From assembly GCF_002127655.1 (NCBI RefSeq), contig NZ_NEHB01000002.1:261388-325387 (forward strand): 64,000 nucleotides of DNA, read 5' to 3'. This document shows, one piece after another, positions 38,903-54,800 of this stretch. The DNA is from Janthinobacterium sp. GW456P (GTDB taxonomy: Bacteria; Pseudomonadota; Gammaproteobacteria; Burkholderiales; Burkholderiaceae_D). How positions within the stretch are numbered: the stretch's first letter is position 1; every line of letters starts with the position of its first letter. A program made the position numbers and the translations under genes. The notes under the pieces were generated by a model. That model saw only the letters and a program-made list of their open reading frames with translations. It was not told the origin of the DNA and ran no database searches.

Positions 38903-40090
38903 ATGCAAAGTCTGATCTCGATCGCCGCCGACCTGTCCTGGCCGTTCGCCATTACCCTGGCCTGGGTGGCGGGCGAATTCGGCCACCGCTGGACTGGCCT
39001 GCCGCGCATCAGTTTTTACGGCGTGATCGGCTTCGTCCTCGCACAGACGCAGGTAGGCATCCTGCCGCAGACGGACGCCGGCCCCATGCTGGTGCTGGCC
39101 GACGTGGCCTTCGGCCTGATCCTGTTCGAGGTGGGCTACCGCATCAACCTGCGCTGGCTGAAGAACAATCCGTGGATCGCCGTCACGGGCCTGGTCGAAT
39201 CCCTGCTGACCTTTGCCGTCGTCTACTTCATCGGCATCGAATTCGGTTCCACCTCGATGACGGCGCTGCTGCTGGCGTCCTTGGCCATGTCCACCTCGCC
39301 GGCCACCATAATGCGCGTCATCAACGAGGAACGCAGCTCGGGCCAGGTCACGGAACGCATCGTCCACCTCACCGCCCTCAATTGCGTGCTGGCCGTCTTC
39401 ACGTTCAACATCATCGTCGGCTTCTGGATGTTCCAGAGTTCCACCGACCTGATCCAGGCAAGCAGCAGCAGCGCCGCCGTGCTGGCCGCCTCCGTGGCCG
39501 CCGGCACCGTCTTCGGCATCGTGGTGCCGGCCATGCTGCGCCGCCTGGGCAACATGGCGCAGGACGCCACCGTGGCATTCGCCCTGTCGGTGATGCTGCT
39601 CGTCGCCCTGACCTACACCACCAGCCTGTCGCCGCTGCTGGCCACCCTCACCTTCGGCCTGGTGGCGCGCCACCGCAGGGTCGCCTTCAGCCAGGCGCAG
39701 CGCAATTTCGGCGCCATGGGCGAGCTGCTGACGGTGCTGCTGTTCGTGTATGCCGCCTCGACCCTGGAATGGGCCAGCGTGACGGCCGGCGCGGGCCTGG
39801 CCCTGGCCGTCGTCGGCGGACGGTTGCTGACGAAGGTCGCCGGCGTGGCCGCGTTTTCGCATGTGAGCGGCATTTCCTGGCGCAAGGGCGTGCTGACGGG
39901 CGTGGCCCTGACGCCCGTTTCCGTCTTCATCATCCTGCTGCTCGAACACGCGCGCCAGCACGGCGTGAACTTCGGCGACGAATTGAACGCCCTGGCCGCC
40001 ATCACCCTGGGCCTGGAACTGGTCGGCCCCGTGCTGGTGCAGCGCGTGCTGATGCTGGCCAAAGAAACCCACGAAATAAAGGAGCGCTAA
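38903..40090 (+). CDS. Kef/NhaP-type cation:proton antiporter
   Basis: An inner-membrane monovalent cation:proton antiporter of the CPA2 type, 395 aa with about 11-12 hydrophobic segments and no cytoplasmic nucleotide-binding (TrkA-N) domain. The start at 38903 has AAAGGA six bases upstream; an ATG at 38897 directly abuts that site and is less likely. Conserved family segments include MLVLADVAFGLILFEVGYRINL and LLASLAMSTSPATIMRV. Ion and direction cannot be told. The YbdK-type ligase gene begins on the very next base after its stop, so the two are coupled. Confidence 0.88.
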   Translation: MQSLISIAADLSWPFAITLAWVAGEFGHRWTGLPRISFYGVIGFVLAQTQVGILPQTDAGPMLVLADVAFGLILFEVGYRINLRWLKNNPWIAVTGLVESLLTFAVVYFIGIEFGSTSMTALLLASLAMSTSPATIMRVINEERSSGQVTERIVHLTALNCVLAVFTFNIIVGFWMFQSSTDLIQASSSSAAVLAASVAAGTVFGIVVPAMLRRLGNMAQDATVAFALSVMLLVALTYTTSLSPLLATLTFGLVARHRRVAFSQAQRNFGAMGELLTVLLFVYAASTLEWASVTAGAGLALAVVGGRLLTKVAGVAAFSHVSGISWRKGVLTGVALTPVSVFIILLLEHARQHGVNFGDELNALAAITLGLELVGPVLVQRVLMLAKETHEIKER

Positions 40091-41221
40091 ATGCCGCTGG
40101 AACCCTTTGGCCAATCGGCCGCGCTGACCTTCGGCGTCGAACTCGAACTGCAACTGGTTAACCTGTCGGACTATGACTTGACGGCCGCCAGCCCCGACCT
40201 GCTGCATCTGCTGAACAAGAAGCCGTTTCCCGGCAACGTCACGCCGGAAATCACCGAGAGCATGATCGAGATCAACTCGAGCGTGCACACGCATCACGGC
40301 CCCCTGCTGGAGCAGTTGCAGGAAATCCGCGACACCCTGATCACGGCCGGCGACAAGCTCAATATCGGCATCGCGGGCGGCGGGACGCACCCGTTCCAGC
40401 AATGGTCGTCGCAAAAGATCTTTTCCAAGCCCCGCTTCCAGGAAATCTCGGAACTGTATGGCTACCTGGCCAAGCAGTTCACCATCTTCGGCCAGCACGT
40501 GCACATCGGCTGCGCCTCGGGCGACGACGCCATGTTCTTGCTGCATTCGCTGAACCGCTACATCCCGCACTTCATCGCCCTGTCGGCGTCTTCGCCCTAC
40601 GTGCAGGGGCGCGACACCCTGTTCGATTCGGCCCGTTTGAATTCCGTGTTCGCCTTTCCCATGAGCGGACGCGCACCGTTCACCCTGAGCTGGGACCAGT
40701 TCTCCAACGAGTATTTCGCCAAGATGGAGAACACCGGCATCATCAAGAGCATGAAGGACTTTTACTGGGATATCCGGCCCAAGCCGGAATTCGGCACCAT
40801 CGAACTGCGCGTGTGCGACACGCCGCTGACGGTGGAACGGGCCGCCGCCCTGGCCGCCTACCTGCAGGCCCTGTGCCGCTACCTGCTCGAACGCCGCGAA
40901 GCGCCGCCCGTGGAAGACGATTACCTCGTGTATAACTACAACCGCTTCCAGGCTTGCCGCTTCGGCCTCGATGGCGCCATCACGCATCCGAAAACCTACG
41001 AAACGATGTCGCTGCGCGAAGACATCATGACCACGCTGCGCAAGATGGAACCGCACGCCGAGGCGCTGGGCAGCACGCCGGCCCTGAAACACCTGTCGGA
41101 CGTGGCCAAGCAATGGAGCGACGCGCAATACCTGCGCAAGCAGCACAACGTGCAGGGCAGCGCCGAGGGCATGGTCGATTCGGCCATCCGCTGCTTCCGT
41201 GGCGAGCCCATGAACTACTGA
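40091..41221 (+). CDS. ybdK: YbdK-type carboxylate-amine ligase
   Basis: A 376-aa ATP-dependent ligase of the glutamate-cysteine ligase type 2 group (YbdK), which has weak gamma-glutamylcysteine-forming activity in E. coli; its true substrate is unsettled. Family marks include [10 protein letters not shown] near the N-terminus, [28 protein letters not shown] and [11 protein letters not shown]. The full family length is present. It starts one base after the antiporter stop. If it makes gamma-glutamyl thiols, it may tie the antiporter to redox state, as glutathione does for KefC; this is inference. Confidence 0.92.
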
Positions 41222-41278
41222 CGTTGCGCTGCCTAGTAACGTAGCAATGTGATGTTCACCGTGCGCACGAAGTTTTCA

Positions 41279-42358
41279 CTACGCGCCGTACAGCGCCAGC
41301 GCCCAGGCTGGCGGGCGCAATTCCAGTGCCAGCGGCAGCCAGGCGGGATCGAAGCGCGCCGCCAGCAAATACACATTGGCGGCGCCCCTGGCCTCCCAAT
41401 TTCCCGTAAAGCCCTTTTCGCCGGCGGCCACGCGCTTGCGGTCGAAGGGCACGGCGCTTTTCGCGAACTCTTCGTGCGTCTTTTTGCCCTGCGCATACGG
41501 CGCCAGCCAGGCCAGCGCCTCGACCAGGCGCCGCGCTTCCGGCGCGCCATACCAGTCGTCGCCATGCGCCTGCGCCATCAGGGCCGTCGTCAGCAGCGGC
41601 TCCAGGCTATAGGTGGTGTAGTGCAGGGCGTCGCGCTGCTCGAAGTCGAAGGGCACGCCGCCGACGCCGATATTGCGCGGCACGTGCGCCAGGAAGCGTT
41701 CCTTCGCCCGCGCGACCAGCAGGGCGTCGCCCGTGACATACGCGGCGGCCGTGCCGATCTTGATGCGGTGGCTGTGCCAGTTGTTGCGGGCCGTGGAGGG
41801 GCCGCCCACCTTGACGGGATCGCTCAGGTAGCCCTGCGCCAGGGTGCGGCAAAACGCCTGCACCTGCTCGCGCTCGATGCCGTTCAAGCGCTCCTGCACC
41901 AGGTCGTATCCCATCAGCAGGCTGGCCAGCTCCGTCTCGTCGACAGGGCTGAACGAGGGCTGGTAGGTGCCGCTCCAGGCCAGCAGCAGCTGGCGCGCCG
42001 CCTCGAAATGCGCCATCTCGCCCGACAGCCGCCAGGCCAGCGCCTGCAGTCTCGCCTGGCGCCAGTCTTCCTGCGCCTGCTGGCTGGTCTCGCGCCCGCC
42101 CTCTCCCTTCAGCAAGCCGCCCGTGCGCACTTCGGCCATCAGGTGCACGGGCCGCGCCGCGTCCTTGCGCGCCGCCTTGACCACCTGTCCGGCGATGGCG
42201 GGCGCCACCCGCGCCTTGAGCGTGCGGGCGCGCGCGGCGGACGTCAGCGCAAACGGCAGCGCGCCTTCATGCGGGTGCGGCGCCGCGCGCAAGCCCGCCA
42301 GTGGCAGCGCCAGCAGGCCGGCCAGCACGGTGCGCCGGCGGATCAGATGCGTACTCAA
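41279..42358 (-). CDS. Alginate lyase family protein
   Basis: A 359-aa exported protein. Its N-terminus RRRTVLAGLLALPLAGLRA resembles a twin-arginine signal. The body is an alpha/alpha toroid of the alginate lyase (PL5-like) family, with the active-site region ARNNWHSHRIKIGTAAA at about 178-194 and later FDFEQRDALHYTTYSLEPLL. It probably cleaves a uronate polymer or related glycan in the periplasm; the substrate is not deducible. Its start overlaps the stop of the amidotransferase gene by four bases, so they are cotranscribed. Confidence 0.85.
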   Translation of the reverse strand: MSTHLIRRRTVLAGLLALPLAGLRAAPHPHEGALPFALTSAARARTLKARVAPAIAGQVVKAARKDAARPVHLMAEVRTGGLLKGEGGRETSQQAQEDWRQARLQALAWRLSGEMAHFEAARQLLLAWSGTYQPSFSPVDETELASLLMGYDLVQERLNGIEREQVQAFCRTLAQGYLSDPVKVGGPSTARNNWHSHRIKIGTAAAYVTGDALLVARAKERFLAHVPRNIGVGGVPFDFEQRDALHYTTYSLEPLLTTALMAQAHGDDWYGAPEARRLVEALAWLAPYAQGKKTHEEFAKSAVPFDRKRVAAGEKGFTGNWEARGAANVYLLAARFDPAWLPLALELRPPAWALALYGA

Positions 42359-43356
42359 AACCGCGTCTCCCGCGCCGCGCGCAAAAAATTATCGAGGATG
42401 GGCGTGCAATCGAGCAGTTCGACGCCGCCCGCCGAATGGAATTCCGGGTGCCACTGCAAGCCCATGACGAAGCGCGCCCGCTGGTAGCGGATGGCCTCGA
42501 CGATGTTGTCCCCTTGCGAATACGCTTCCACGGTGACGTCGCGCCCCAGGTCCTTGACCGACTGGTGGTGGATGGAATTGACGAGCGCCTCGCCCGTCTT
42601 CGGGAACATGCCCGCCAGGGACGAGCCTTTCGGGAAGACAATGGTATGGCGGTGGCGGTCATACAGGTCGTTGACATGGGAAGTGGCGCCTGCCACGTCC
42701 GAAGCGATGTCCTGGTACAGGGTGCCGCCAAAGCCCACGTTGATCAGTTGACAGCCGCGGCAAATACCCAGCACGGGTTTGCCCGCGTCGACGAATTCGT
42801 GCAGCAGCTCCAGTTCGTACAGGTCGCGCGCGCGGTCGCCGTTCCATTCGGGCCGCGTGGCCGCCTCGGAATACGTCTGCGGCGAGACGTCGGCGCCGCC
42901 CTGCAGCACCAGGCCGTCCAGATGGCGCGCATAGTGGCGCAGGGTGATATTGCTCGGGTGTAGCTGGCCGCTGGTATTGACCGTCGGGATCATGAACACC
43001 AGCACGTCGCGCGACATGACCCACTGGGCGATCGACTCTTCCAGGTATTGCAGGTTCTTGCTGCGCAGGCCAGTGGCGCCCGGCTCGGGATGGAAAATGC
43101 GCGCCGAGATGCCGATGCGCAGGGTGCGCCGCATGAAATCGCGGCTGGCCTTGTCGCGCATGGAACGGTAGCGCGACGAGATCACCCGCCAGGCCAGCGC
43201 CAGCGGCGTGTCGTTATCCTTCAAATAGCGGGGGGCGGCGTCGCGCGCACGGTGCTCATCATCGGGCGCCCGGCGGCCTACCCGGTCGGGCCGGGACGAC
43301 GCTGGCGCCGCGGGATCGGTGGATGGCGGCTGCTGGGGATCTTTTTCGTCTGACAT
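42355..43356 (-). CDS. Class I glutamine amidotransferase, PuuD-like
   Basis: A 333-aa protein of the gamma-glutamyl-GABA hydrolase group. The nucleophile C199 lies in GICRGCQLINVGFGGTL, and the His/Glu of the triad in GLQWHPEFHS. About 80 residues precede the catalytic domain: a disordered Pro/Asp/Arg-rich part then a helical region. E. coli PuuD (about 254 aa) lacks this. The start MSDEKD at 43356 is chosen because upstream in-frame sequence is unlike protein. The true substrate is uncertain; gamma-glutamyl amide hydrolysis is expected. The alginate lyase-like gene follows with overlap. Confidence 0.88.
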   Translation of the reverse strand: MSDEKDPQQPPSTDPAAPASSRPDRVGRRAPDDEHRARDAAPRYLKDNDTPLALAWRVISSRYRSMRDKASRDFMRRTLRIGISARIFHPEPGATGLRSKNLQYLEESIAQWVMSRDVLVFMIPTVNTSGQLHPSNITLRHYARHLDGLVLQGGADVSPQTYSEAATRPEWNGDRARDLYELELLHEFVDAGKPVLGICRGCQLINVGFGGTLYQDIASDVAGATSHVNDLYDRHRHTIVFPKGSSLAGMFPKTGEALVNSIHHQSVKDLGRDVTVEAYSQGDNIVEAIRYQRARFVMGLQWHPEFHSAGGVELLDCTPILDNFLRAARETRF

Positions 43357-43573
43357 GGCAAGGCTGACTGAAAGCGGAGACGTTTTCAATATAAACCCCC
43401 ATCTCCGAAAGCACGATTCAATTTTGTAACAAAAGCCCACGCGCGGGCCTCTGCGCAACACACTCACGCCGCCTGCATACGGCCCGTTTACGCCGCAGGC
43501 CCCGCTTTTTAGAGAATCTTTACGCCCCCGCTGCTAATCTTGAACGTACCTCAACCACCGCTGCAAAGCCACC

Positions 43574-43873
43574 ATGGAACCCCATTCACGCCTGCAATCG
43601 CATCAAGCACTGCCCCACCGCCATCCCCGCCTGCCCACCTTTCTCATGCATATCACGGTCGACAAGTCCTGCCTGGCCGAGCTGCGCCAGCTGGTCGTCA
43701 AGACCTGCGGCGGCATGCTGTCGTTCATGCGCGTCGAAGCGGTCGATCATGCCGAGCGCATGAAAGTCTGGCTGTGCGTGACGGAACCGGCCCTGCGCTT
43801 GACCATGGATGCCGTCATGCGCCTGCTGCCGGCGGCGGAATTTGGCCGCATCAGCCAGGGGAAATCGCTATGA
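43574..43873 (+). CDS. Small protein of unknown function before the DapA homologue
   Basis: Up to 99 aa; a shorter 75-aa form starts at 43646 (MHITVDKSC). Neither start has a good ribosome-binding site. The 75-aa core (ITVDKSCLAELRQLVVKTC, then AERMKVWLCVTEPALRLTMDAVMRLLP) has a beta-alpha-beta pattern that could be a small ligand-binding (ACT-like) fold, but I do not recognise the family. Its stop overlaps the start of the DapA homologue by four bases, which supports it being real. Confidence 0.6.
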   Translation: MEPHSRLQSHQALPHRHPRLPTFLMHITVDKSCLAELRQLVVKTCGGMLSFMRVEAVDHAERMKVWLCVTEPALRLTMDAVMRLLPAAEFGRISQGKSL

Positions 43874-44907
43874 ACCAGTACACCTGCGAACAGGCGATGT
43901 CGTCATCGCGCATCACCGCGCATTTCCAGGGCATCTGGGTGCCGATGGTCACGCCATTTTGCGACGGCGATGGCGACATCGACTTCGACGCGGCCCAGCA
44001 GCTCGCATGCGAACTGGCCGCCAGCGGCGTCGATGGCCTGGTGGTGTGCGGCACCACGGGCGAAGCGGCCATGCTGAGCGCCGCGGAACAGAGCATGCTG
44101 CTCGACAGCGTGCTCGAAGCCGTCGGTCCCCGCTTCCCCGTCGTCATGGGGATAGGCGGCAGCGATACGCGCAGCGTCGTCTCCGCCGTGCAGCGCTACA
44201 ACGACCATCCGCTGGCCGGCCTGCTGGTCTCGGCGCCAGCGTATGTGCGCCCTTCGCAGGACGGCATCGTGCGCCACTTCCAGGCCATCGCCGCCGCCAC
44301 CGACCAGTCCATCGTGCTGTACAACGTGCCGGCCCGCACGGGCGTCAATATCGAACCGCAGACGGCGGCGCTGCTGGCGCGCGACTCGCACTTCGTCGCC
44401 ATCAAGGAAGCGGGCGGCAAGCTGCAGCAGCTGGGCGAACTGCTGCTCGACACGCGCCTGGACGTGCTGTGCGGCGACGACGCGCTGCTGCTGGCCAGCC
44501 TGTCCATGGGCGGCCACGGCGCCATGTCGGCCGCCGCCCAGGTGCGCCCCGACCTGTATGCGCAGCTGTACCACCTCGTCAGGCAGGGCCGCCACGGCGC
44601 CGCCGGCGCCCTGTTCAAGACCATGCTGCCCGTCATCCGCCTGCTGTTTGCCGAACCAAATCCCGCTCCCGTGAAGGCCGCGCTGGCCATGCAGGGCAAG
44701 GTACGCGACGCATTGCGCCTGCCGATGACGCCCATGTCTTCCGCCGGCCAGGCCGCCCTGGCCGAAGCGCTCGAACCCCTGATGCAGCTGCCCGCATGGA
44801 CCGCGGGCGACAGGGAGGAAGCACGCGAAGGCTGTCTGCTGCAGCTGGTTTCTTCCGCCAACATCATGCCAGCCGTGCGCCAAGATGATCATCGCCATCA
44901 CGGATGA
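43870..44907 (+). CDS. DapA-family aldolase (DHDPS-like)
   Basis: A class I aldolase of the dihydrodipicolinate synthase / N-acetylneuraminate lyase family. The 345 aa exceed the usual ~290-300 aa by an N-terminal extension of ~20 and a C-terminal one of ~30 residues ending DDHRHHG. Schiff-base K179 (FVAIKEAGG), Y151 (VLYNVPARTGVN) and the GTTGE carboxylate-binding motif (61-65) are present, matching true DHDPS. It may be a second DapA paralogue or act on another pyruvate aldol. It overlaps the small gene before it (4 bases) and the ParA-like gene after it (23 bases). Confidence 0.88.
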   Translation: MNQYTCEQAMSSSRITAHFQGIWVPMVTPFCDGDGDIDFDAAQQLACELAASGVDGLVVCGTTGEAAMLSAAEQSMLLDSVLEAVGPRFPVVMGIGGSDTRSVVSAVQRYNDHPLAGLLVSAPAYVRPSQDGIVRHFQAIAAATDQSIVLYNVPARTGVNIEPQTAALLARDSHFVAIKEAGGKLQQLGELLLDTRLDVLCGDDALLLASLSMGGHGAMSAAAQVRPDLYAQLYHLVRQGRHGAAGALFKTMLPVIRLLFAEPNPAPVKAALAMQGKVRDALRLPMTPMSSAGQAALAEALEPLMQLPAWTAGDREEAREGCLLQLVSSANIMPAVRQDDHRHHG

Positions 44908-45427
44908 ACGCGGGGGGATGGAGAAATCCATCCTGGCCGGGCGGCTGGCCGCCTCGCGCGCGCTGGCCGGACGCAAGGTATTGCTGCTCGATGCCGATCC
45001 GCGTCAGGGCGCCATGGCGCAAGCCAGGAATATGCACGACGGCGCCATGCACGGCAGCCTGACGCGGCCGCGCCTGATGGCGCGCGCCATCAGCGCCAAG
45101 GGCTTGCAGCCGGAGCTCGAGCACCTGGTGCACTGCTACCACGACATCGTCATCGACAGCGAAGGCCGCGACTCCATGGGCAGCCGTTCGGCCCTGATCG
45201 CCGCGCGCGTGCTGGTGGTGCCGCTCGACGGCGTCGTCGACGCCGGCGCGCAGGCGGGCCTGGCGCGCCGCATCGCGCACGCGCGCAGCGTCAATCCCGG
45301 CTTGCGCGTGCTGCTGGCAAGGGACACGCAAGCGGCGCCCGCCCACGCCCTGGCCGCGCAGATTCCAGACGCCCGCGTGGTCGGCCTGGGGCAACTTTAC
45401 TGCGCCGTTTTCAACCTGCCCGCTTAG
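44885..45427 (+). CDS. ParA-like ATPase with degenerate Walker A
   Basis: A 180-aa protein with the outline of ParA/MinD ATPases: MIIAITDERGGMEKS at the N-terminus, LLLDADPRQG at 33-42 and a shortened IVIDSEGRD at the second metal-binding place. The deviant Walker A (KGGxGKS/T) is here RGGMEKS (9-15): the signature Lys is Arg and the Gly before the P-loop Lys is Glu. ATP binding may therefore be impaired. It is shorter than typical ParA (about 210-260 aa). Its start lies inside the DapA homologue gene, so it is translated from the same transcript. Role unknown. Confidence 0.75.
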   Translation: MIIAITDERGGMEKSILAGRLAASRALAGRKVLLLDADPRQGAMAQARNMHDGAMHGSLTRPRLMARAISAKGLQPELEHLVHCYHDIVIDSEGRDSMGSRSALIAARVLVVPLDGVVDAGAQAGLARRIAHARSVNPGLRVLLARDTQAAPAHALAAQIPDARVVGLGQLYCAVFNLPA

Positions 45428-45432
45428 AGCGC

Positions 45433-45460
45433 GCAAAAAAGGCGGCGCATGCGCCGCCTC
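45433..45460 (-). terminator. Terminator of the TorF-type porin gene
   Basis: GGCGGCGCATGCGCCGCC (45441-45458) is a perfect palindrome followed on the minus strand by six T. It lies 14 bases beyond the stop of the minus-strand porin gene; it may also be the end of the converging plus-strand operon. Confidence 0.85.
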
Positions 45461-45473
45461 CCTCACCTGTCAA

Positions 45474-46223
45474 TTAAAACGTCTTGCTGACCGTCAGCTG
45501 CAGCGCCGTCTTGCCCATGAATTTGCCATTCACGGGCGAGGCATACGCCGCCTTGCCCGCGTTCGTGCCGATCACGGCCAGCGCGCCCGTCACGACACCG
45601 AAGTCGCGCGTGACGCCCACTTTCCAGTCCGTGTAGCTCGACGCGTCATTGTTTTTCACTTTCTGATGGCCCGCATGCAGGTTGCCGGTCCAGCCGTTCG
45701 TCAGGTCGATATTCGCGCCGATATCGAGGTAGCCGCTGTTCTTGCTGTTGACGATGCCGAACAGGTTCGAGACGGCGTGCGAATATTTGATATAGGCGGG
45801 GCCATACGACAGCTGGCCATAGACTTCCTGCGTGTCCGCGTCGGCCAGGCCGGCGACGTGCTTCAAGCCGTTGTCCGCGTACACATAGGCGAGCACGCCG
45901 ACGTCATAGCCGACAGCGCCGCCCAACTGGCCGCGCTTGCCCGCATACAGATCGACTTCCACGTCGCCGCTGCCGCCCGCATCCTTGGTCCACTTGATAG
46001 TGGAAGCCCAGGCGCCCGCATACAGGCCCGTCGGGTTGTTGATGTAATCCACGCCGCCCTGCAGCGCGGGCTTCAAGCGCGTCTGCGAGATGCCCCGGTA
46101 ACGGTAGTCGGATACGCCGGCCACGTTGAAACTGACTTCATTGTCGGGCTTGGCCTCGTCCGCGTGGGCCAGGCTGCCCGTCAAGGCGGTGGCGACGGCA
46201 AGTGCAAGTAGCATTTTATTCAT
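45474..46223 (-). CDS. TorF family putative porin
   Basis: A 249-aa outer-membrane protein with a signal peptide ending AHA (about residue 20) and a predicted beta-barrel (alternating strands, final LQLTVSKTF). Sequence marks of the TorF (Gcw_chp) family are VSDYRYRGISQT near the N-terminus and YAGAWAS. The start at 46223 has GAAGAAG upstream. In many proteobacteria such genes neighbour glnK-amtB; here the neighbour is kdpE. Transport substrate unknown. Confidence 0.88.
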   Translation of the reverse strand: MNKMLLALAVATALTGSLAHADEAKPDNEVSFNVAGVSDYRYRGISQTRLKPALQGGVDYINNPTGLYAGAWASTIKWTKDAGGSGDVEVDLYAGKRGQLGGAVGYDVGVLAYVYADNGLKHVAGLADADTQEVYGQLSYGPAYIKYSHAVSNLFGIVNSKNSGYLDIGANIDLTNGWTGNLHAGHQKVKNNDASSYTDWKVGVTRDFGVVTGALAVIGTNAGKAAYASPVNGKFMGKTALQLTVSKTF

Positions 46224-46355
46224 GGTTTTTTCTTCTTCATGGGTAGTATGGGCCTTTGCCAACATGGCGCAGCTGGCCCGCCGCTGCAAAAAATAAGGTA
46301 AAGCGTCCCCCCGGCGCGCGCGGCGCCTGTTTTCAAACAGGGGAAATAACAGGTA

Positions 46356-47054
46356 TTAGAGCGGCAGCAGCAAGCGGTAACCGACCGCCGTTTCCGTCAG
46401 CAGGTACTGCGGCTGGGCCGGATCGGCTTCCAGCTTCTGGCGCAGATGGCCCATGTAGATGCGCAGGTAATGGCCGTTTTCGCTGTTCGACGGCCCCCAC
46501 ACTTCGCGCAGCAGTTGCGGATTGGTGACCACCCTGCCCGCGTTCTTCACGAGTACCGACAGCAGGCGGAATTCCGTCGGCGTCATGTGCACCAGCTGCT
46601 TGTTGCGCGTCACCAGCCGATCCTTCAGGTCGACGCGCACGTCGCCGAACTGCACCACGCCATCGTCGCTGGCGGCGGGCTGGCGCTGGCGGCGCAAGGT
46701 GGCGCGCACGCGGGCCAGCAGCTCGCCCACGCCGAACGGCTTGGTCAGATAGTCGTCGGCGCCCGCATCGAGCGCGCGGATCTTGTCCTGCTCGTCGACC
46801 CGCGCCGACAGCACGATGATGGGCACGGCCGACCATTTGCGGATGTCGGCGATGAAATCGATGCCGTCGCCGTCGGGCAGGCCCAGGTCCAGCACGATCA
46901 GATCGGGCCGGCGCGTGCCCGCGTCGATCAGGCCGCGCTGCATGGTGGCCGATTCGAAAATCTGCCAGCCCTCGTCTTCCAGCGCGGCGCGCACGAAGCG
47001 GCGGATTTGCGGTTCATCCTCGACGAGCAAGGCGGTAGCGGAAGGTTCGTTCAT
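46356..47054 (-). CDS. kdpE: KdpE, response regulator of the potassium system
   Basis: OmpR-type response regulator of 232 aa with receiver domain (phospho-acceptor D56 in DLIVLDLGLPDGDG, Lys in YLTKPFG) and C-terminal winged helix (LTPTEFRLL-like MTPTEFRLLSVLVKN). It should activate kdpFABC at low potassium or high osmolarity. Its start overlaps the kdpD stop by four bases. Confidence 0.96.
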   Translation of the reverse strand: MNEPSATALLVEDEPQIRRFVRAALEDEGWQIFESATMQRGLIDAGTRRPDLIVLDLGLPDGDGIDFIADIRKWSAVPIIVLSARVDEQDKIRALDAGADDYLTKPFGVGELLARVRATLRRQRQPAASDDGVVQFGDVRVDLKDRLVTRNKQLVHMTPTEFRLLSVLVKNAGRVVTNPQLLREVWGPSNSENGHYLRIYMGHLRQKLEADPAQPQYLLTETAVGYRLLLPL

Positions 47055-49792
47055 GTTGGTTTTCCTGTTTCATGGTCGTTGGCGTCATCGAGCTCGATCT
47101 CCGGCGGCGCCGGCGGCGTGCCCAGCGGCAGGCTGAAGACGATGGCGGCGCCCTGTCCCGGCGTGTGCGGCTGCGCGTGGATAGTGCCGCCGTGCGCTTC
47201 GACGATAGCGCGGCAGATGGCCAGCCCCAGCCCGACGCCCGGCTTGTTCGATTCGCGCTCGCCGCGCGTGAATTTTTCAAAGATGGCTTCTTCGCGGCCG
47301 GGCGGCAGGCCCGGGCCATCGTCAAGCACCGTCACCTGCAGGAACTGGCCGTGCACCCCGGCCGCGACCGTGATGGTGCTGCCCGGCGGCGTGTACTTGG
47401 CCGCGTTTTCCAGCAGGTTGCACAGCACGCGCTCGATCAGCACGGCGTCGTAGCGCACCAGCGGCAGGTCCGGCGCCAGCTGCGTCAGCACGGCGTGCTG
47501 CTGCAATTGCGGGCCGCTGGCGCGCAGCGCGCTGCCCACCACTTCTTCCAGCGCCTGCCATTGCAGGTTCAGGCGCACCTGGCCGCTCTCGATGCGCGCC
47601 ATGTCCAGCAGGTTCGCCACCAGGGCGCTCATGCGCACGGTTTCGGACTGCAGCGAGCGCGCCATGTCCAGCTGCGCGGGCGACAGCGCAGGCCGGGACA
47701 GAGCCAGCGATTCGGCCAGGCCCACCAGCGACGTCAAGGGCGTGCGCAAGTCGTGCGACAGGGCCGCCAGCAGCGAATTGCGCAGCCGCTCCGATTCCAT
47801 CTGCAGCAGCGCGCCCTGGGCCACGTCGATGTAGTGCACGCGCTCGAGGGCGATGGCCGCCAGGGCGGCAAAGGTGTCGAGGTGCTGGCGCTGTTCCGGC
47901 ACCAGCAGCCAGCGGCCACGCTGCGCGCCATCGAGCGGCAGCAGCGCCAGCACGCCGCGCGTGCGCATAGGCGCGATCAGCGGCAGGTAGAAAATGGGCG
48001 AAGCCGGCAGGGTATCGGTGCCCGTCCCCGCCGCCTGCGCATGGTCGAAGGCCCACTGCGCGATGCCGATATCGAGCGGCTCGCCGCCGTTCGGGGACTG
48101 CAAGCTGCCTTCGTCGTCGGGCAGCAGCAAAGCGGCGCGCGCGCGGAACGCCCGTTCGATGGCGCTTTTCGTGATGTCGAAAATCTGCTCCGTCTGCAGC
48201 ACGCCGGACAATTCGCGCGAAAACTCGTACAGGGCGCGGGCGCGCGCTTCGCGGTGCGAGGCCACGCGCGCCTGGAAGCGCAGGCCGGCCGTCAGGTGGC
48301 CCGTGATCAGGCCCACCGCCAGCATCACGCCAAACGTGATCACATACTGGAAATCGCCCACGGCAAACGAGAAGCGCGGCGGCACGAAGATGAAGTCGAA
48401 GCTGGCCACGCCCACCAGGCTGGCCAGCGCCGCCGGCCCGCGCCCCAGGCGCACGGCCACCAGCACCACCGTCAGCAAGGACAACATGGCGATATTGGCC
48501 AGGTCCAGGTAGGGCTGCAGGGGGACCGAAGCGAGGGCCGTGGCCAGGCTGGCGCCGGCGGCCAGGATGTAGCGCCAATGGCGCGATGGCCGGCGCGGCG
48601 CATCCGCGTCGTCGTCCGCCGCGCGCCGGGGCGCCGCATCGGCAGGCGGCAAACCCACCTCGATCAAATCGATATCGGGCGCAAGGCTGGCCATGCGGGC
48701 GGCCGGCGGCGTCTGCCACAGGCGCGCCAGCGCACCGCCGCGGCCACGGCCCACGATGACTTTCGAGATATTCGCGCCGCGCGCATACTCGACCACGGCG
48801 CCGGCGATGTCGGCGGACGGCAGAATCGCCGTGCGCGCGCCCAGGTCCTGCGCCAGTTTCAGGGTTTTCAAAATGCGCTCGCGCTGGCCCGCCGGCAAGC
48901 GCTGCAAGCGCGGCGTTTCCACGTACAGCGCGTGCCATTCCGCGTTCAGCTGGCTTGCCAGGCGCGCCGTGCTGCGGATCACGTGTTCGCCCCCCGCGTG
49001 CGGTCCCACGCAGGCCAGCAGCGCGGCGCCCGTCTTCCACACGGGATTGATGGATTTTTCGACGCGGTAGGCCTGCACGTCATCCTGGATCCGGTCCGCC
49101 GTGCGGCGCAAGGCCAGTTCGCGCAGGGCGATCAAATTGCCCTTGCGGAAAAAATGCTGCGATGCCCGTTCGGCCTGCTGCGGCTGATATACCTTGCCCT
49201 GCTTCAGGCGGCGCAGCAGTTCATCGGCCGGGATATCGACCAGCACCACTTCATCGGCACGGTCGAACACCGTATCGGGCAGGGTCTCGGCCACGCGCAC
49301 GCCCGTGATCCCTCCTACCACGTCGTTCAGGCTTTCCAGGTGCTGCACGTTCACGGTCGACAGCACGTCGATGCCGGCCGCCAGCAATTCCTCGACATCC
49401 TGCCAGCGCTTCGGATGACGCGATCCGGCCACGTTCGAGTGGGCCAGTTCATCCATCAGTATCAGCGGCGGCGCGCGACGCAGGGCTTCGTCGAGGTCGA
49501 ACTCGTACAGGGTCTTGCCGCGGTACTCGATGGCTTTGAGCGGAAGCACGGGCAAGCCGTCGAGCTGGGCCGCCGTATCCTGGCGCCCATGCGTCTCCAC
49601 CACGCCCACCAGCAAGTCCTGGCCATCGGCCAGCATTTTGCGGGCGGCCGCCAGCATCGCGTAGGTCTTGCCGACGCCGGCCGAGGCGCCGAAATAGATG
49701 CGCAGCCGGCCGCGCGCGGCTTTCTTTTCCTGCGCCTGCACTTGCGCCAGCAGGGCATCAGGGTCGGGGCGTTGGCTGTCGTTGGGGAGCAT
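47051..49792 (-). CDS. kdpD: KdpD, sensor kinase of the potassium system
   Basis: Membrane histidine kinase of 913 aa from the start MLPNDSQRPD at 49792; an upstream ATG at 49858 would lie in the REP cluster. Order: KdpD ATP-binding domain with Walker A GASAGVGKT (35-43), universal-stress-protein-like domain (about 250-370), four membrane helices (about 400-500), GAF-like region, and a HisKA/ATPase pair with phospho-acceptor His in AALSHDLRTPLTS and GxG boxes DDGPGLPPG and GVGLGLAI. It controls KdpE. It is separated from kdpC by the repeat cluster, so it may have its own promoter. Confidence 0.96.
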   Translation of the reverse strand: MLPNDSQRPDPDALLAQVQAQEKKAARGRLRIYFGASAGVGKTYAMLAAARKMLADGQDLLVGVVETHGRQDTAAQLDGLPVLPLKAIEYRGKTLYEFDLDEALRRAPPLILMDELAHSNVAGSRHPKRWQDVEELLAAGIDVLSTVNVQHLESLNDVVGGITGVRVAETLPDTVFDRADEVVLVDIPADELLRRLKQGKVYQPQQAERASQHFFRKGNLIALRELALRRTADRIQDDVQAYRVEKSINPVWKTGAALLACVGPHAGGEHVIRSTARLASQLNAEWHALYVETPRLQRLPAGQRERILKTLKLAQDLGARTAILPSADIAGAVVEYARGANISKVIVGRGRGGALARLWQTPPAARMASLAPDIDLIEVGLPPADAAPRRAADDDADAPRRPSRHWRYILAAGASLATALASVPLQPYLDLANIAMLSLLTVVLVAVRLGRGPAALASLVGVASFDFIFVPPRFSFAVGDFQYVITFGVMLAVGLITGHLTAGLRFQARVASHREARARALYEFSRELSGVLQTEQIFDITKSAIERAFRARAALLLPDDEGSLQSPNGGEPLDIGIAQWAFDHAQAAGTGTDTLPASPIFYLPLIAPMRTRGVLALLPLDGAQRGRWLLVPEQRQHLDTFAALAAIALERVHYIDVAQGALLQMESERLRNSLLAALSHDLRTPLTSLVGLAESLALSRPALSPAQLDMARSLQSETVRMSALVANLLDMARIESGQVRLNLQWQALEEVVGSALRASGPQLQQHAVLTQLAPDLPLVRYDAVLIERVLCNLLENAAKYTPPGSTITVAAGVHGQFLQVTVLDDGPGLPPGREEAIFEKFTRGERESNKPGVGLGLAICRAIVEAHGGTIHAQPHTPGQGAAIVFSLPLGTPPAPPEIELDDANDHETGKPT

Positions 49793-49820
49793 GTTGTATT
49801 TTAATTTACTTGGAGCATGT

Positions 49821-49991
49821 GTAGGCCGGATTAGCGCTGGCGCGTAATCCGGCAGCATTGTTGGCCTGGCTGGGGCTATGGGTGATGTCGGCTTACGCTG
49901 CGCTAAGCCGACCTACGCCGACCTGCGCCTATCTTTTTATTTTGCCATGGCGTCAAGTAGGTCGGATTAGCGCGCAAGCGCGTCATCCGAC
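49821..49991. repeat. Three-copy REP/BIME-type palindrome cluster
   Basis: Three related palindromes lie at 49821-49853, 49887-49916 and 49957-49991. Their common plan is GTAGGTCGGATTAGCGC then GCGCGTAATCCGAC; the middle copy is in opposite orientation (ending CCGACCTAC). They fill the gap between kdpC and kdpD, where they could stabilise or stop the kdpFABC message. No gene is seen in this gap. Confidence 0.8.
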
Positions 49992-50042
49992 GACATCATC
50001 GGCCAAGCCGTGCACGATGCCGGCCTGCGCGCCTTTGCCAGC

Positions 50043-50618
50043 TTACTTGGCCATGGCATCGAGCGCCAGGTTCAGTTCCAGCACATTCACGCGCGGTTCG
50101 CCGAAAAAGCCGATATACGCGGTTTTCTGTACCTTGGCGATGGCATTTTCCACCTGCGCCAGCGGCACGGCGCGCACGCGGGCCACGCGGGGCGCCTGGT
50201 ACAGGGCGCCCGCCAGGCTGATTTCCGGGTCCAGGCCGCTACTCGACGCCGTCACCAGGTCGACGGGGATCGGGTTGCGGTTGCCGGGATCGGCTGCCTG
50301 CAGGGCGGCGACGCGCGCCTTGACGGCATCGACCAGGGCCGGATTCGTCGGTCCCTGGTTCGAGCCGCCCGAACCGGCGCCGTTATTGGCCATCGGCGCG
50401 GTGGCCGACGGCCGACCCCAGAAATACTTGGGCGAAGTAAAGGACTGGCCGATCAGGGTCGAGCCGACGGGCTTGCCCCCACGCTCGACGATGCTGCCGT
50501 TGACTTCATCGTTGAAGGCCAGCTGGCCGATGCCGGCCGTGGCAAACGGATAGACGACGCCGCAGATCACGGTCAGCGCGGCAAACAGGACCAGGGCGGG
50601 ACGTACGATAGTGCTCAT
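50043..50618 (-). CDS. kdpC: KdpC, potassium-transporting ATPase subunit C
   Basis: A 191-aa subunit with one N-terminal membrane helix (about 8-28) and a periplasmic domain with family marks FNDEVNGSIVERGGKPVGS, SGGSNQGPTNPAL and ASSSGLDPEISL. It promotes assembly or nucleotide affinity of the KdpFABC pump. It follows kdpB by 10 bases and is the last gene of the structural operon. Confidence 0.96.
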   Translation of the reverse strand: MSTIVRPALVLFAALTVICGVVYPFATAGIGQLAFNDEVNGSIVERGGKPVGSTLIGQSFTSPKYFWGRPSATAPMANNGAGSGGSNQGPTNPALVDAVKARVAALQAADPGNRNPIPVDLVTASSSGLDPEISLAGALYQAPRVARVRAVPLAQVENAIAKVQKTAYIGFFGEPRVNVLELNLALDAMAK

Positions 50619-50628
50619 GATGGTTCCT

Positions 50629-52707
50629 TTAGACTAAATGGAGGGCGGACAGCAGCATGTCGATCAGCTTGATGCCGATGAAAGGCAGGACGATGCCGCC
50701 CAGGCCGTAGATCAGCAGGTTGCGGCGCAAGAGCATGGCCGCGCCGATGGCCCGGTATTGCACGCCTTTCAGCGCCAGCGGAATCAGCACGACGATGATC
50801 AGGGCATTGAAGATCACGGCCGACATGATGGCCGAGGCGGGGCTGGCCAGCTGCATGATGTCGAGCGCCTTCAGTTGCGGGTAGGTGCCCACAAACGCGG
50901 CCGGGATGATGGCAAAGTACTTGGCGATGTCGTTCGAAATCGAGAACGTCGTCAGCGAGCCGCGCGTCATCAGCATCTGCTTGCCGATTTCAACGATTTC
51001 CAGCAGCTTGGTCGGGTTCGAGTCCAGATCGACCATATTGCCCGCCTCCTTCGCCGCCTGCGTGCCCGAATTCATGGCCACGGCCACGTCGGCCTGGGCC
51101 AGCGCGGGGGCATCGTTGGTGCCATCGCCCGTCATCGCCACCAGGCGGCCTTCGGACTGGTAGCTGCGGATGAGTTTGAGCTTGTCTTCCGGCGTCGCCT
51201 CGGCGAGGAAATCGTCCACGCCCGCTTCGGCGGCAATCGCGGCCGCCGTCAGCTTGTTGTCTCCCGTGATCATGACGGTCTTGATGCCCATGCGGCGCAA
51301 TTCCGCGAAGCGTTCCTTGATGCCGCCCTTGACGATATCCTTCAGTTCCACGGCGCCCATGACCTTACCATCGTCGACCACCACCAGCGGCGTGCTGCCG
51401 CGGCGCGCGATGTCGTCAACGGCGCGTGCCACCTCGGCCGGATACGGCTGGCCCAGCGCCTCCACATACTTTTTCATGGAATCGGCCGCGCCCTTGCGCA
51501 GCTGGCGCACCTGCTGTTCGCCCGCGATATCCACGCCGCTCATGCGCGTCTGCGCCGTGAACGGTACAAACGTCGCATGCAGGCTGGCCATCTCGCGTTC
51601 GCGGATATTGAATTTCTGCTTGGCCAGCACGACGATGCTGCGCCCTTCCGGCGTTTCATCGGCCAGCGAGGCCAGCTGCGCCGCGTCGGCCAGCTGCTGC
51701 TCCGTCACGCCGGGGGCAGGCACGAAGCTTGACGCCTGGCGGTTGCCCAGGGTGATGGTGCCCGTTTTATCGAGCAGCAGCACGTCCACGTCGCCAGCCG
51801 CTTCCACGGCGCGGCCCGAGGTGGCGATCACATTGGCTTGCATCATGCGGCTCATGCCGGCTACGCCGATGGCGGACAGCAGGCCGCCGATGGTGGTCGG
51901 GATCAGGCACACGAGCAACGCGATCAGCACGGTGATGGTGACGGGGGCGCCGCTGCCGGCCGCCGCCACGGAAAACAGCGAGTACGGCAGCAGAGTCACG
52001 GTGACGATCAGGAAAACGATCGACAGGGCCACGAGCAGGATCGTCAGGGCGATCTCGTTCGGCGTCTTCTGGCGCTTGGCGCCTTCGACCATGGCGATCA
52101 TGCGGTCGATGAAGGCTTCGCCCGGATTGACGGAGACGCGCACCAGCAGCCAGTCCGACAGCACGCGGGTGCCGCCCGTGACGGCGGAAAAGTCGCCGCC
52201 CGATTCACGGATGACGGGGGCCGATTCGCCCGTGATGGCGCTTTCGTCGACGGAGGCCACGCCTGCCGTCACTTCACCGTCGGCGGGAATCACGTCGCCC
52301 GCCTCCACCAGCACCGTCATGCCCTTGCGCAGGTCGGTGGCCGGCGTGGGCAGCCAGGAGGTGCCGTATTTCGGCGTCTGCATTTTCTTTGCCATCACCG
52401 TCTGCTTGAGGGCGCGCAGGGAGGCCGCCTGGGCCTTGCTGCGGCCTTCGGCCAGCGCTTCGGCGAAGTTCGCGAACAGCACGGTAAACCACAGCCACAC
52501 GGCGACGGCGACAATGAAGCCGAACGGCGCCTCGCCCTGGCCATTCAGGGCCTGGATGGCCAGCAGGGTCGTGATGATGCTGCCGACATAGACGACGAAC
52601 ATCACGGGGCTGCGCCACTGCGTGCGGGGGTCGAGTTTTTTGAACGCATCGACGACGGCGGGGCCAATCAGTGCGGAATCGAACAAAGTCAGGCTTGTGC
52701 GTGACAT
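50629..52707 (-). CDS. kdpB: KdpB, P-type ATPase catalytic subunit
   Basis: P-type ATPase of 692 aa that energises high-affinity K+ uptake. The phosphorylated Asp is D313 in [12 protein letters not shown]; the actuator motif TGES lies at 159-162, with S162 at the same place as the inhibitory phospho-serine of E. coli Kdp[15 protein letters not shown] marks the hinge. Seven membrane segments are expected. Nine bases follow kdpA before its ATG. Confidence 0.97.
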
Positions 52708-52716
52708 GGTAGCCTC

Positions 52717-54525
52717 TTATTTGATGAAAAGTTGCAGGTGTTCGACGATCGGGCCCAGGGCCAGCGCGGGAACGTAATTGAGCACGCCGACGAGCACGAC
52801 GACGCCGATCAGCAGGCCGATGAACATGGGGCCGTGCGTGGGCATGGTGCCGGCATTGGCCGACAGGCGCTGCTTGGCCGCCAGCGAACCGGCCACCGCC
52901 AGCACGGGCACGATCACGCCGAAGCGGCCGAACCACATGGCGATCGCCAGCATCACGTTGTAGAACGGCGTGTTGGCGGACAGGCCGGCAAACGCGCTGC
53001 CGTTGTTGTTGGCCGCCGACGTGAAGGCGTACAGGATCTCGGAGAAACCGTGCGCGCCCGGATTGGCCACGCCGATCTTGCCCGGTTCGACCATCACGGC
53101 GATCGCCGTACCCGTCAAGACGAGGGCTGGCGTAATCAGGATGGCCAGCGACACCATCTTCATTTCATAGGCCTGGATTTTCTTGCCCAGGTATTCAGGC
53201 GTGCGGCCTATCATCAGGCCGGCGATGAAGACGGCCAGGATGGCGAACATCAGCATGCCGTACAGGCCCGTGCCCACGCCGCCGAAAATCACTTCGCCGA
53301 ACTGCATCAGCAGCAGCGGCACCATGCCGCCCAGGGGCATGTAGGAGTCGTGCATGGAATTGACGGCACCGCACGATGCGGCCGTCGTCACTGCCGCGAA
53401 CAGGGTCGAGGAGCTGATGCCGAAGCGCGTTTCCTTGCCTTCCATATTGCCGCCCGATTGCAGGCTGCTGGCCTGCTGGTCCACGCCCAAGGCCTGCAAG
53501 GCGGGATTGGCTTGCTGCTCGGCGCTCATCACGCCGGCCGTCATGACGACGAAGATCAGGCTCATCGCGGCCAGCACGGCCCAGCCCTGGCGCAGGTCGC
53601 CCACCATGCGGCCGAAGGTGAAGCACAGGCCGGCGGGAATGATGAAGATGGCCAGCATCTGCAGGAAGTTCGACAGCACGGTCGGGTTTTCGTACGGGTG
53701 CGAGGAATTGGCATTGAAGAAGCCGCCGCCGTTCGTGCCCAGCAGCTTGATCGACTCCTGCGACGCGACGGGCCCCATGGCGATCATCTGCGTCGTCGCC
53801 ACTTGCGCTTCCATCACGGGTTTGCCGGCGGCGTCCAGCACGGGCTGGCCGTCAGCCGTCGTTTTCGGCGTTTCATACGCCACGTGGTCGAGCAGGGTCA
53901 CTTCCTTGTAGGCGGAAAAATTCTGGATCATGCCTTCGCCCATGAAGACCACCGACAGGGCCAGGGACAAGGGCAGCAGGATGTACAGGGTCGAGCGCAC
54001 CAGGTCGACCCAGAAATTGCCGATCGATTTGCTGGAACGCGAGGCGAAGCCGCGCACCAGCGCGAAGATCACGGCGATGCCGGTGGCCGCCGAAAAGAAG
54101 TTCTGGCAGGCCATGCCCAGCATCTGGGTCAGATAGCTCATGGTCTGTTCGCCGCCGTAGCCCTGCCAGTTGGTATTGGCGACGAAGCTGACGGTGGTAT
54201 TGAACGAGGAATCGGGGCTGACGGCGCCCAGGCCCTGGGGATTGAGTGGCAGGAAGCCCTGCAGGCGCTGCAGGCCGTAGACGAAGACGGCGCCCACGGT
54301 ATTGAAGACGATCAGGGCGATGGCATAGCTTTTCCAGCCCATGGCCTTGTCGGCGGGAAGGCCGGACCAGCGGTACAGCAGATTTTCCAGCTTTTGCAGC
54401 CAGCCCAGACCGCGCACGGGGCCATCGCCGGCCACCTTGGCCATGTACAGGCCCAGCGGATAGCCGGCGGCCAGCAGCACGGCCAGGAAGGCCACCAACA
54501 ACAGTATCGATTGCGTCGTCATCAC
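52717..54525 (-). CDS. kdpA: KdpA, potassium-binding subunit
   Basis: Membrane channel-like subunit of 602 aa, related to Trk/Ktr transporters, with about ten helices and four degenerate pore loops such as SFVANTNWQGYGGE, GTNGGGFFNANSSHPYENP and SAANNNGSAFAG carrying the selectivity glycines. It takes up K+ from the periplasm. Its ATG overlaps the kdpF stop by four bases. Confidence 0.97.
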   Translation of the reverse strand: MMTTQSILLLVAFLAVLLAAGYPLGLYMAKVAGDGPVRGLGWLQKLENLLYRWSGLPADKAMGWKSYAIALIVFNTVGAVFVYGLQRLQGFLPLNPQGLGAVSPDSSFNTTVSFVANTNWQGYGGEQTMSYLTQMLGMACQNFFSAATGIAVIFALVRGFASRSSKSIGNFWVDLVRSTLYILLPLSLALSVVFMGEGMIQNFSAYKEVTLLDHVAYETPKTTADGQPVLDAAGKPVMEAQVATTQMIAMGPVASQESIKLLGTNGGGFFNANSSHPYENPTVLSNFLQMLAIFIIPAGLCFTFGRMVGDLRQGWAVLAAMSLIFVVMTAGVMSAEQQANPALQALGVDQQASSLQSGGNMEGKETRFGISSSTLFAAVTTAASCGAVNSMHDSYMPLGGMVPLLLMQFGEVIFGGVGTGLYGMLMFAILAVFIAGLMIGRTPEYLGKKIQAYEMKMVSLAILITPALVLTGTAIAVMVEPGKIGVANPGAHGFSEILYAFTSAANNNGSAFAGLSANTPFYNVMLAIAMWFGRFGVIVPVLAVAGSLAAKQRLSANAGTMPTHGPMFIGLLIGVVVLVGVLNYVPALALGPIVEHLQLFIK

Positions 54526-54700: not shown

Positions 54701-54783
54701 TCCCACCCTCATTCAGGTTTGTTTTGATAGTGAGCAGATTAGCCAAAAGGGTCTAAAAAATTCGTAAAGACTGGGAAGGCGGC

Positions 54784-54800
54784 TGTAAACAAGATGTAAA
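54784..54800 (-). promoter_or_regulatory. KdpE-type direct repeat
   Basis: On the minus strand TTTACA-TCTTG-TTTACA is a perfect direct repeat with 11-bp period, the layout bound by OmpR-family dimers, and TTTACA resembles the E. coli KdpE site. It lies 84 bases before the first kdp gene start. A third TTTACG follows at about 54760. The surrounding gap 54701-55073 holds no other gene. Confidence 0.6.

Follow-up and report, generated by a model that had tools for sequence, protein, structure and literature searches.

A conserved and modular gene cassette with a DapA paralogue behind a putative KdpE-type promoter in Janthinobacterium and its relatives

In the KdpDE/kdpFABC system of Escherichia coli, the response regulator KdpE binds two 6-bp repeats, TTTATA and TTTACA, which lie 5 bp apart and in which the first two bases are an invariant T (PMC3264566). 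In DHDPS, the DapA enzyme, position 56 separates lysine-sensitive forms (His or Glu) from insensitive ones (Lys or Arg), and Arg138 is among the active-site residues (PMC5109050). Finally, Bacillus subtilis grows without added K+ when it is given lysine, ornithine, arginine or citrulline (PMC5573677). We compared with these systems a locus of the soil bacterium Janthinobacterium sp. GW456P, lying in a stretch of 64,000 nucleotides that was analysed whole (the window). The reading that we prefer, and to which we give about an even chance, is that this cassette is a KdpE-controlled operon for K+ limitation, in which a small regulator, a lysine-insensitive DapA (DapA2) and a ParA-like adaptor would serve to replace K+ with basic amino acids. 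The features of the locus are as follows.

43476..43524, + strand: putative KdpE-type operator of TTTA-like half-sites, proposed from the sequence, its conservation at 29 loci and the half-site rule of PMC3264566
43533..43540, + strand: -10-like element GCTAATCT; its distance to the last half-site equals that in the kdp promoter
43574..43645, + strand: in-frame N-terminal extension of the small protein, or a leader; weakly conserved (dN/dS 0.24 against 0.05 in the core), start uncertain
43646..43873, + strand: small protein of 75 aa with a predicted beta-alpha-beta-beta-alpha-beta fold (PII/ACT-like)
43870..44907, + strand: DapA2, a DHDPS paralogue with intact active-site residues whose lysine allosteric site is lost
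44885..45427, + strand: apparent pseudo-ATPase of the ParA fold, P-loop RGGMEKS
45474..46289, - strand: outer-membrane protein (Gcw_chp, PF09694), which we take to be of the TorF type; end of the kdp row, convergent with the cassette
46356..47054, - strand: KdpE response regulator, from its OmpR-type domains and its position next to KdpD
47051..49858, - strand: KdpD sensor kinase, start uncertain (PF02702, E 6e-95, on 47054-49792)
50043..54525, - strand: kdpC, kdpB and kdpA
54736..54789, - strand: kdpFABC promoter box with the architecture of the cassette promoter

Genes were called with an in-house caller, and gene clusters were named from the Pfam matches of their representatives. The three open reading frames on the + strand (43574-43873, 43870-44907 and 44885-45427) overlap successively by 4 and 23 bases, as had been described in an earlier reading made from the sequence only. 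The start given there for the small protein holds in part: a frame does open at 43574, but the conserved core begins at an in-frame ATG at 43646, and conservation is loose over the 24 residues that precede it. A scan of 43300-45700 for the sigma-70 consensus found no promoter, and no Rfam RNA, the lysine riboswitch included, was found in 40000-50000 at E up to 1.

The ParA-like gene is present in 29 of 37 Janthinobacterium genomes (the window's own included), with at least 176 of 180 residues covered, and each of these 29 loci also encodes the aldolase and the small protein, so the neighbourhood is not that of a single strain. All three reading frames are intact at the 29 loci. Five of the remaining eight genomes (G009, G011, G013, G022 and G035) keep the small gene. 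The small-protein profile matched 123 of 392 genomes of the family, in 14 of 44 genera, and a broader profile matched 6 of 399 genomes in an order-wide sample, 4 of the 6 lying outside the family. Among 56 loci chosen for the small gene, with the window excluded and some genomes contributing two or three, 17 carry both dapA and a par-like gene, 16 have dapA without par, 9 have par without dapA and 14 lack both. The claim of an undescribed small system stands as far as it was tested: the genes form a conserved, modular set, and the open-licence literature yielded no description of them. The earlier reading is supported only in part as a whole: the cassette is real, and the kdp-like promoter and the loss of the lysine site were missing from it.

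The cassette promoter reads TTTACG-N15-TTTAGA-N5-TTTACG-N8-GCTAATCT, with an additional CATACG half-site upstream, and neighbours lie 11 bp apart within each of the operator pairs CATACG/TTTACG and TTTAGA/TTTACG. This half-site array is kept at all 29 loci of the genus. The kdpF promoter is spaced identically, its last two half-sites standing in exchanged order, and the kdpFABC promoter contains two TT-starting 6-bp repeats 5 bp apart, the arrangement given for the E. coli operator. Tandem TTTA-type repeats of this kind, placed before kdp in E. coli (PMC3264566), stand here before both kdp and the cassette, and the likeness points to KdpE as the factor that would bind the cassette array. Exact matches to the pattern TTTAS-N6-TTTAS-N9-GCTAATCT occur twice in the 6.27 Mb genome, at the cassette and kdp promoters, and a third site has 2 mismatches; because the pattern was built from the two exact sites, this count is descriptive and it is the tests in other genomes that matter.

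Outside the genus, the 400 bp upstream of each gene were searched for a site with no more than 3 of 18 positions mismatched. Such a site was found for 16 of 22 small genes whose locus lacks a K+ gene, for 19 of 24 small genes in K+-linked loci and for 9 of 299 other genes, all counts being uncorrected for kinship. The loci span 4-18 kb, so a more distant kdp gene is possible where none was seen; in G213, G233 and G201, and for the second copy in G198, the distance to kdpA is 23-32 kb. When all testable small genes were taken together (61 rows, of which 2 with insufficient upstream DNA were left out), 47 of 59 had a site within 500 bp at the same mismatch limit. A site is missing from 12 small genes, two of the copies in L083 and one each in L107, L108, L109, L111, L113, L121 and L123-L126; the genes of L123 and L124 lie inside the kdp row and that of L125 beside kdp, and all three belong to other families.

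A 22-position pattern from the window's genome was also run, with up to 3 mismatches, through 25 other genomes. In 17 of them kdpA lies at least 22 kb from the small gene or on a different contig, and in the other 8 the position of KdpA is unrecorded. The run returned 47 sites, uncorrected for kinship, of which 24 precede the small gene, 19 are kdp-type, 2 are at TorF and 2 precede Usp-like genes; the reversed control pattern gave 10 matches in the same genomes. Every genome except G265 has the site at its small-gene promoter. Twelve of these promoters were new to the analysis (G119, G168, G173, G185, G197, G206, G226, G236, G256, G264, G272 and G329) and all twelve have the site, the other 13 genomes having already been part of the upstream survey. 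Just upstream of a recorded KdpA lie 11 of the 19 kdp-type sites, while the other 8 were assigned without such a check, and one TorF site falls in the dapA-TorF overlap of G213. No kdp site was found at this threshold in 6 of the 17 genomes with a recorded KdpA (G205, G245, G285, G329, G321 and G265). In G185 the small-gene and kdp sites are 2 Mb apart, and G003, a member of the genus that lacks the cassette, has the kdp site only. Units that are split from the small gene have sites of their own at dapA (L118, L127) and at par and TorF (L088), and the split dapA of L128 has none. No other lysine-pathway gene occurred among the inspected genes downstream of sites.

The gene context of the cassette also involves potassium. 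In the window it converges with the row TorF-kdpE-kdpD-kdpC-kdpB-kdpA. In another family (L123, L124) the small gene stands between kdpABC and TorF-kdpD, and in L125 small-dapA is followed by one CorA-like gene and then by kdpDE. Kup is encoded within 4 kb of the small gene in G144, G177 and G321, and in L087 a PTS EIIA gene, presumably PtsN-like, lies between kdpD and the small gene. For the 49 genomes outside the genus with both positions recorded, the small gene is within 15 kb of kdpA in 18 and farther away or on another contig in 31. Adjacency to kdp was not accepted by itself as proof of a link with K+, given these 31 non-adjacent genomes.

The PF00701 match of the aldolase (E 6.5e-69) spans residues 19-302 of 345, leaving about 18 N-terminal and 43 C-terminal residues unmatched, and the protein scores 252.8 bits against the equivalog cut-off of 206.15 for TIGR00674 dapA. 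With residues numbered by alignment to Salmonella DHDPS (3g0s), its active-site row is T T Y Y R K, which bears out the earlier description of an enzyme with DHDPS catalytic residues and extra ends. We read 33 cassette aldolases, drawn from 41 rows after removal of the canonical L051, 3 pieces shorter than 250 aa and 4 rows duplicated from shorter stretches. K161, R138 and T45 are present in all 33, Y133 and Y107 in 32, and T44 in 28 (Ser in 4, Ala in 1). The exceptions at the tyrosines are Tyr133 to Asp in the dapA of L127 (G198) and Tyr107 to Ser in that of L029; judging from these substitutions, DapA2 may be losing activity in single lineages.

In contrast to this conserved active site, which DapA2 has in common with DHDPS (catalytic Thr, Tyr, Tyr, Arg and Lys), the lysine allosteric residues are replaced. 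The lysine site includes S48, H53, N80, E84 and Y106. In the 33 cassette aldolases S48 is Ala in 32, H56 is Gln in 29 (Lys in 3, Arg in 1), N80 is Ser in 29 and Y106 is lost in 32. The window's enzyme has A48, A53, Q56, S80, S84 and A106, and so differs from a lysine-feedback DHDPS at each of these positions. DapA2 further differs in being a second copy: each of the 26 genomes examined has a canonical-type DapA as its top scorer (PF00701 E 7.1e-99 or better). Of these, 22 were read, with L163, L166, L168 and L170 outside this set and the cassette copies L171, L173 and L174 uncounted, and all 22 retain S48, H56, N80, E84 and Y106; H56 is thus present in 22 of 22 canonical DapAs and in none of the 33 cassette aldolases. 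In a tree the canonical and cassette DapA groups are split (100/99 and 99/98), and three further cassette-like copies fall within the cassette branch, which forms a separate clade; some branches are long and their placement is unsure.

These residues suggest that DapA2 would be a DHDPS isozyme that is not inhibited by lysine. Since Gln56 falls outside the published rule of His/Glu versus Lys/Arg, the predicted insensitivity is argued from the lysine-site residues being lost together. The same loss is also expected of aldolases of this fold that are not DHDPS, which counts against the isozyme reading. DapA2 could accordingly be a different pyruvate aldolase whose product is another osmolyte or a signal, and the separate clade and the replacement of Y106 and the allosteric site are consistent with this; R138, which contacts the substrate in DHDPS, is nevertheless retained in 33 of 33 and the dapA equivalog cut-off is passed, and we regard a changed reaction as unlikely. 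We hold it to be similarly improbable that DapA2 is a backup DHDPS functioning at low K+. The model for this would be the zinc-independent isozymes that serve during zinc starvation, and the promoter architecture common to the cassette and the K+ pump would fit, as would the retention of a canonical DapA. A backup enzyme does not, however, predict the loss of the lysine site, and, as a weaker point, a single open-licence search found no literature on DHDPS and potassium limitation.

The small protein of the window has no match in Pfam, NCBIfam or PHROGs, nor in a sequence search of the PDB, and Pfam gave only scattered weak matches for 25 of its relatives (P-II in one, E 0.22). AlphaFold returned a confident beta-alpha-beta-beta-alpha-beta model (pLDDT 88.6) that is structurally closest to PII-like SbtB (Z 9.6, rmsd 2.8 over 70 residues, 11% identity); unrelated ferredoxin-like folds score Z 8.8-9.0, and Foldseek found nothing at E up to 0.001. 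The predicted fold is that of PII-like SbtB, PotN, DarA/PstA and ACT domains. Unlike these proteins, it has only 75 aa and no long T-loop (strands 25-33 and 38-45 are linked by 4 residues), and a P-II profile match is lacking. We therefore do not class it as PII, as it has neither a long T-loop nor a significant sequence match, and consider it instead a probable sensor or regulatory subunit of the PII/ACT fold.

This protein could also act on potassium transport itself. It would then directly regulate a K+ transporter or KdpD, in the manner of SbtB and SbtA, with DapA2 and the ParA-like protein as accessory effectors. The small gene is often without dapA, which makes this the main rival: it is the small protein that stays constant, neither dapA nor par being present at 14 of the 56 loci (which were chosen for the small gene). 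The positions between kdpABC and TorF-kdpD and close to Kup described above, together with the SbtB match, argue in the same direction. Against it stand the absence of a long T-loop in the model, the close scores of other ferredoxin-like folds, and the linkage to DapA2, which direct control leaves unexplained. We consider it possible but rather doubtful.

The ParA-like protein matches AAA_31 (1.1e-8) and NF041546 (62 bits over residues 2-146, below the cut-off of 180 bits). It resembles the deviant Walker A ATPases of the ParA/MinD group over these residues and differs from them in its P-loop, where RGGMEKS, confirmed here, replaces KGGxGKS. The motif KGGxGK[ST] occurs in none of 35 homologue rows and GK[ST] in 3, rows L116_1 and L131_12 being misread frames; GK[ST] also appears in L116 when it is read in another frame. 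The label of partition-type ATPase was thus misleading, since the deviant Walker A is missing from every row, and a partition system is disfavoured.

The protein had also been called a broken ATPase. This is correct for the degenerate motif, which would favour an explanation by decay of the gene to a fragment and chance assembly of the operon. It is not correct for the gene. Median dN/dS, measured over loci L001-L023 with pairs of dS 0.05 or less left out, is 0.17 for the ParA-like gene and about 0 over its first 20 codons, compared with 0.19 for dapA and, in the small gene (24 of 29 read), 0.05 for the core and 0.24 for the extension at the N-terminus. A value of 0.17 indicates purifying selection and rejects decay, and the three open frames at 29 of 29 genus loci, with the promoter kept in the same 29, also speak against a chance array; this explanation is almost certainly wrong. 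The low dN/dS further implies that the odd P-loop is kept by selection within the Janthinobacterium loci compared. More distant species carry SGGIEKS, QGRMEKS, CGGMGKS or HGGMDKS or have lost the loop completely, and on these sequences it is free to vary between them. The protein looks like a maintained pseudo-ATPase, and we infer a nucleotide-independent role for it. Its AlphaFold model was poor (mean pLDDT 60) and no conclusion was based on it.

In the preferred reading of a K+-limitation operon, KdpD would sense low K+ and KdpE would bind the half-site array, turning on kdpFABC and the cassette together, as their common operator architecture suggests. DapA2 would make the first committed lysine/DAP intermediate without lysine being able to stop it, if its residues are a guide. 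The small protein, with its predicted PII/ACT fold, would be a sensor or a regulatory subunit, and the role of a nucleotide-independent adaptor would fall to the ParA-like protein. The likeliest purpose would be more lysine and related basic amino acids, partially replacing cytoplasmic K+ while the pump restores it, and substitution for K+ by basic amino acids is probably what the cassette is for. Because 23 of the 56 small-gene loci have no dapA, the small protein must have some role beyond lysine supply. A parallel exists in B. subtilis, which grows at extreme K+ limitation with lysine, arginine or ornithine; there the effect arises by mutation or feeding (PMC5573677), whereas here a dedicated operon is proposed. 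More tentatively, and with clearly less confidence, we suggest that a programme of cation replacement is built into Oxalobacteraceae and some of their relatives. KdpE would turn it on together with the K+ pump, a new 75-aa PII/ACT sensor and a pseudo-ParA adaptor would steer a feedback-free lysine enzyme, and basic amino acids would take the place of K+ until uptake is restored.

The putative membership of a DHDPS, a ParA-like and a PII-like protein sets this regulon apart from that of E. coli KdpDE, and for such a membership we found no published parallel. Titles and abstract beginnings in the open-licence literature place none of the three proteins in a Kdp regulon and contain no description of the cassette combination, subscription papers lying mostly outside this scope. 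The results suggest that potassium starvation and amino-acid synthesis are connected in a way not yet described, which would tie K+ homeostasis to the committed step of lysine and peptidoglycan-precursor synthesis. Furthermore, the precise promoter pattern names a candidate regulon across genera, and the function of two protein families, the PII/ACT-fold small protein and the ParA-fold pseudo-ATPase, becomes testable through a simple K+ shift.

Several minor observations concern other operators. A weaker copy recurs in many genomes of the genus. In the two that were read (L145, 1501-1554 on the - strand, and L194) it precedes an ORF of 59 aa whose C-terminal part contains a hydrophobic segment, a possible further member of the regulon. 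In two genomes of genus g52 (L192, L193) an operator with 1 mismatch precedes the gene of a 140-aa protein that looks like a universal stress protein of the UspA type. In L191 (G233) a TorF-like gene with its own operator lies more than 30 kb from kdpA; its distance to the small gene is about 9 kb.

Others concern gene arrangement. One kdp locus, L083 (G022), has three small genes, two par-like genes, one dapA and extra kdpA pieces, resembling a duplication. Membrane-like proteins of 126-236 aa are encoded next to par-like genes, between dapA and the par-like gene or between two par-like genes (L135, 2351-2818; L133, 7145-7852; L136, 5997-6578; L109, 2954-3331); a profile scan gave no match for that of L135 and a sub-threshold MarC match for that of L133. 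In genus g50 (L099, L100, L102, L108) a lone small gene lies between PepSY/flavodoxin reductase and PLD-domain genes, with an operator at L099, L100 and L102 and none at L108. A sodium/calcium exchanger gene follows small-dapA in L096 (by scan) and L129 (by clustering).
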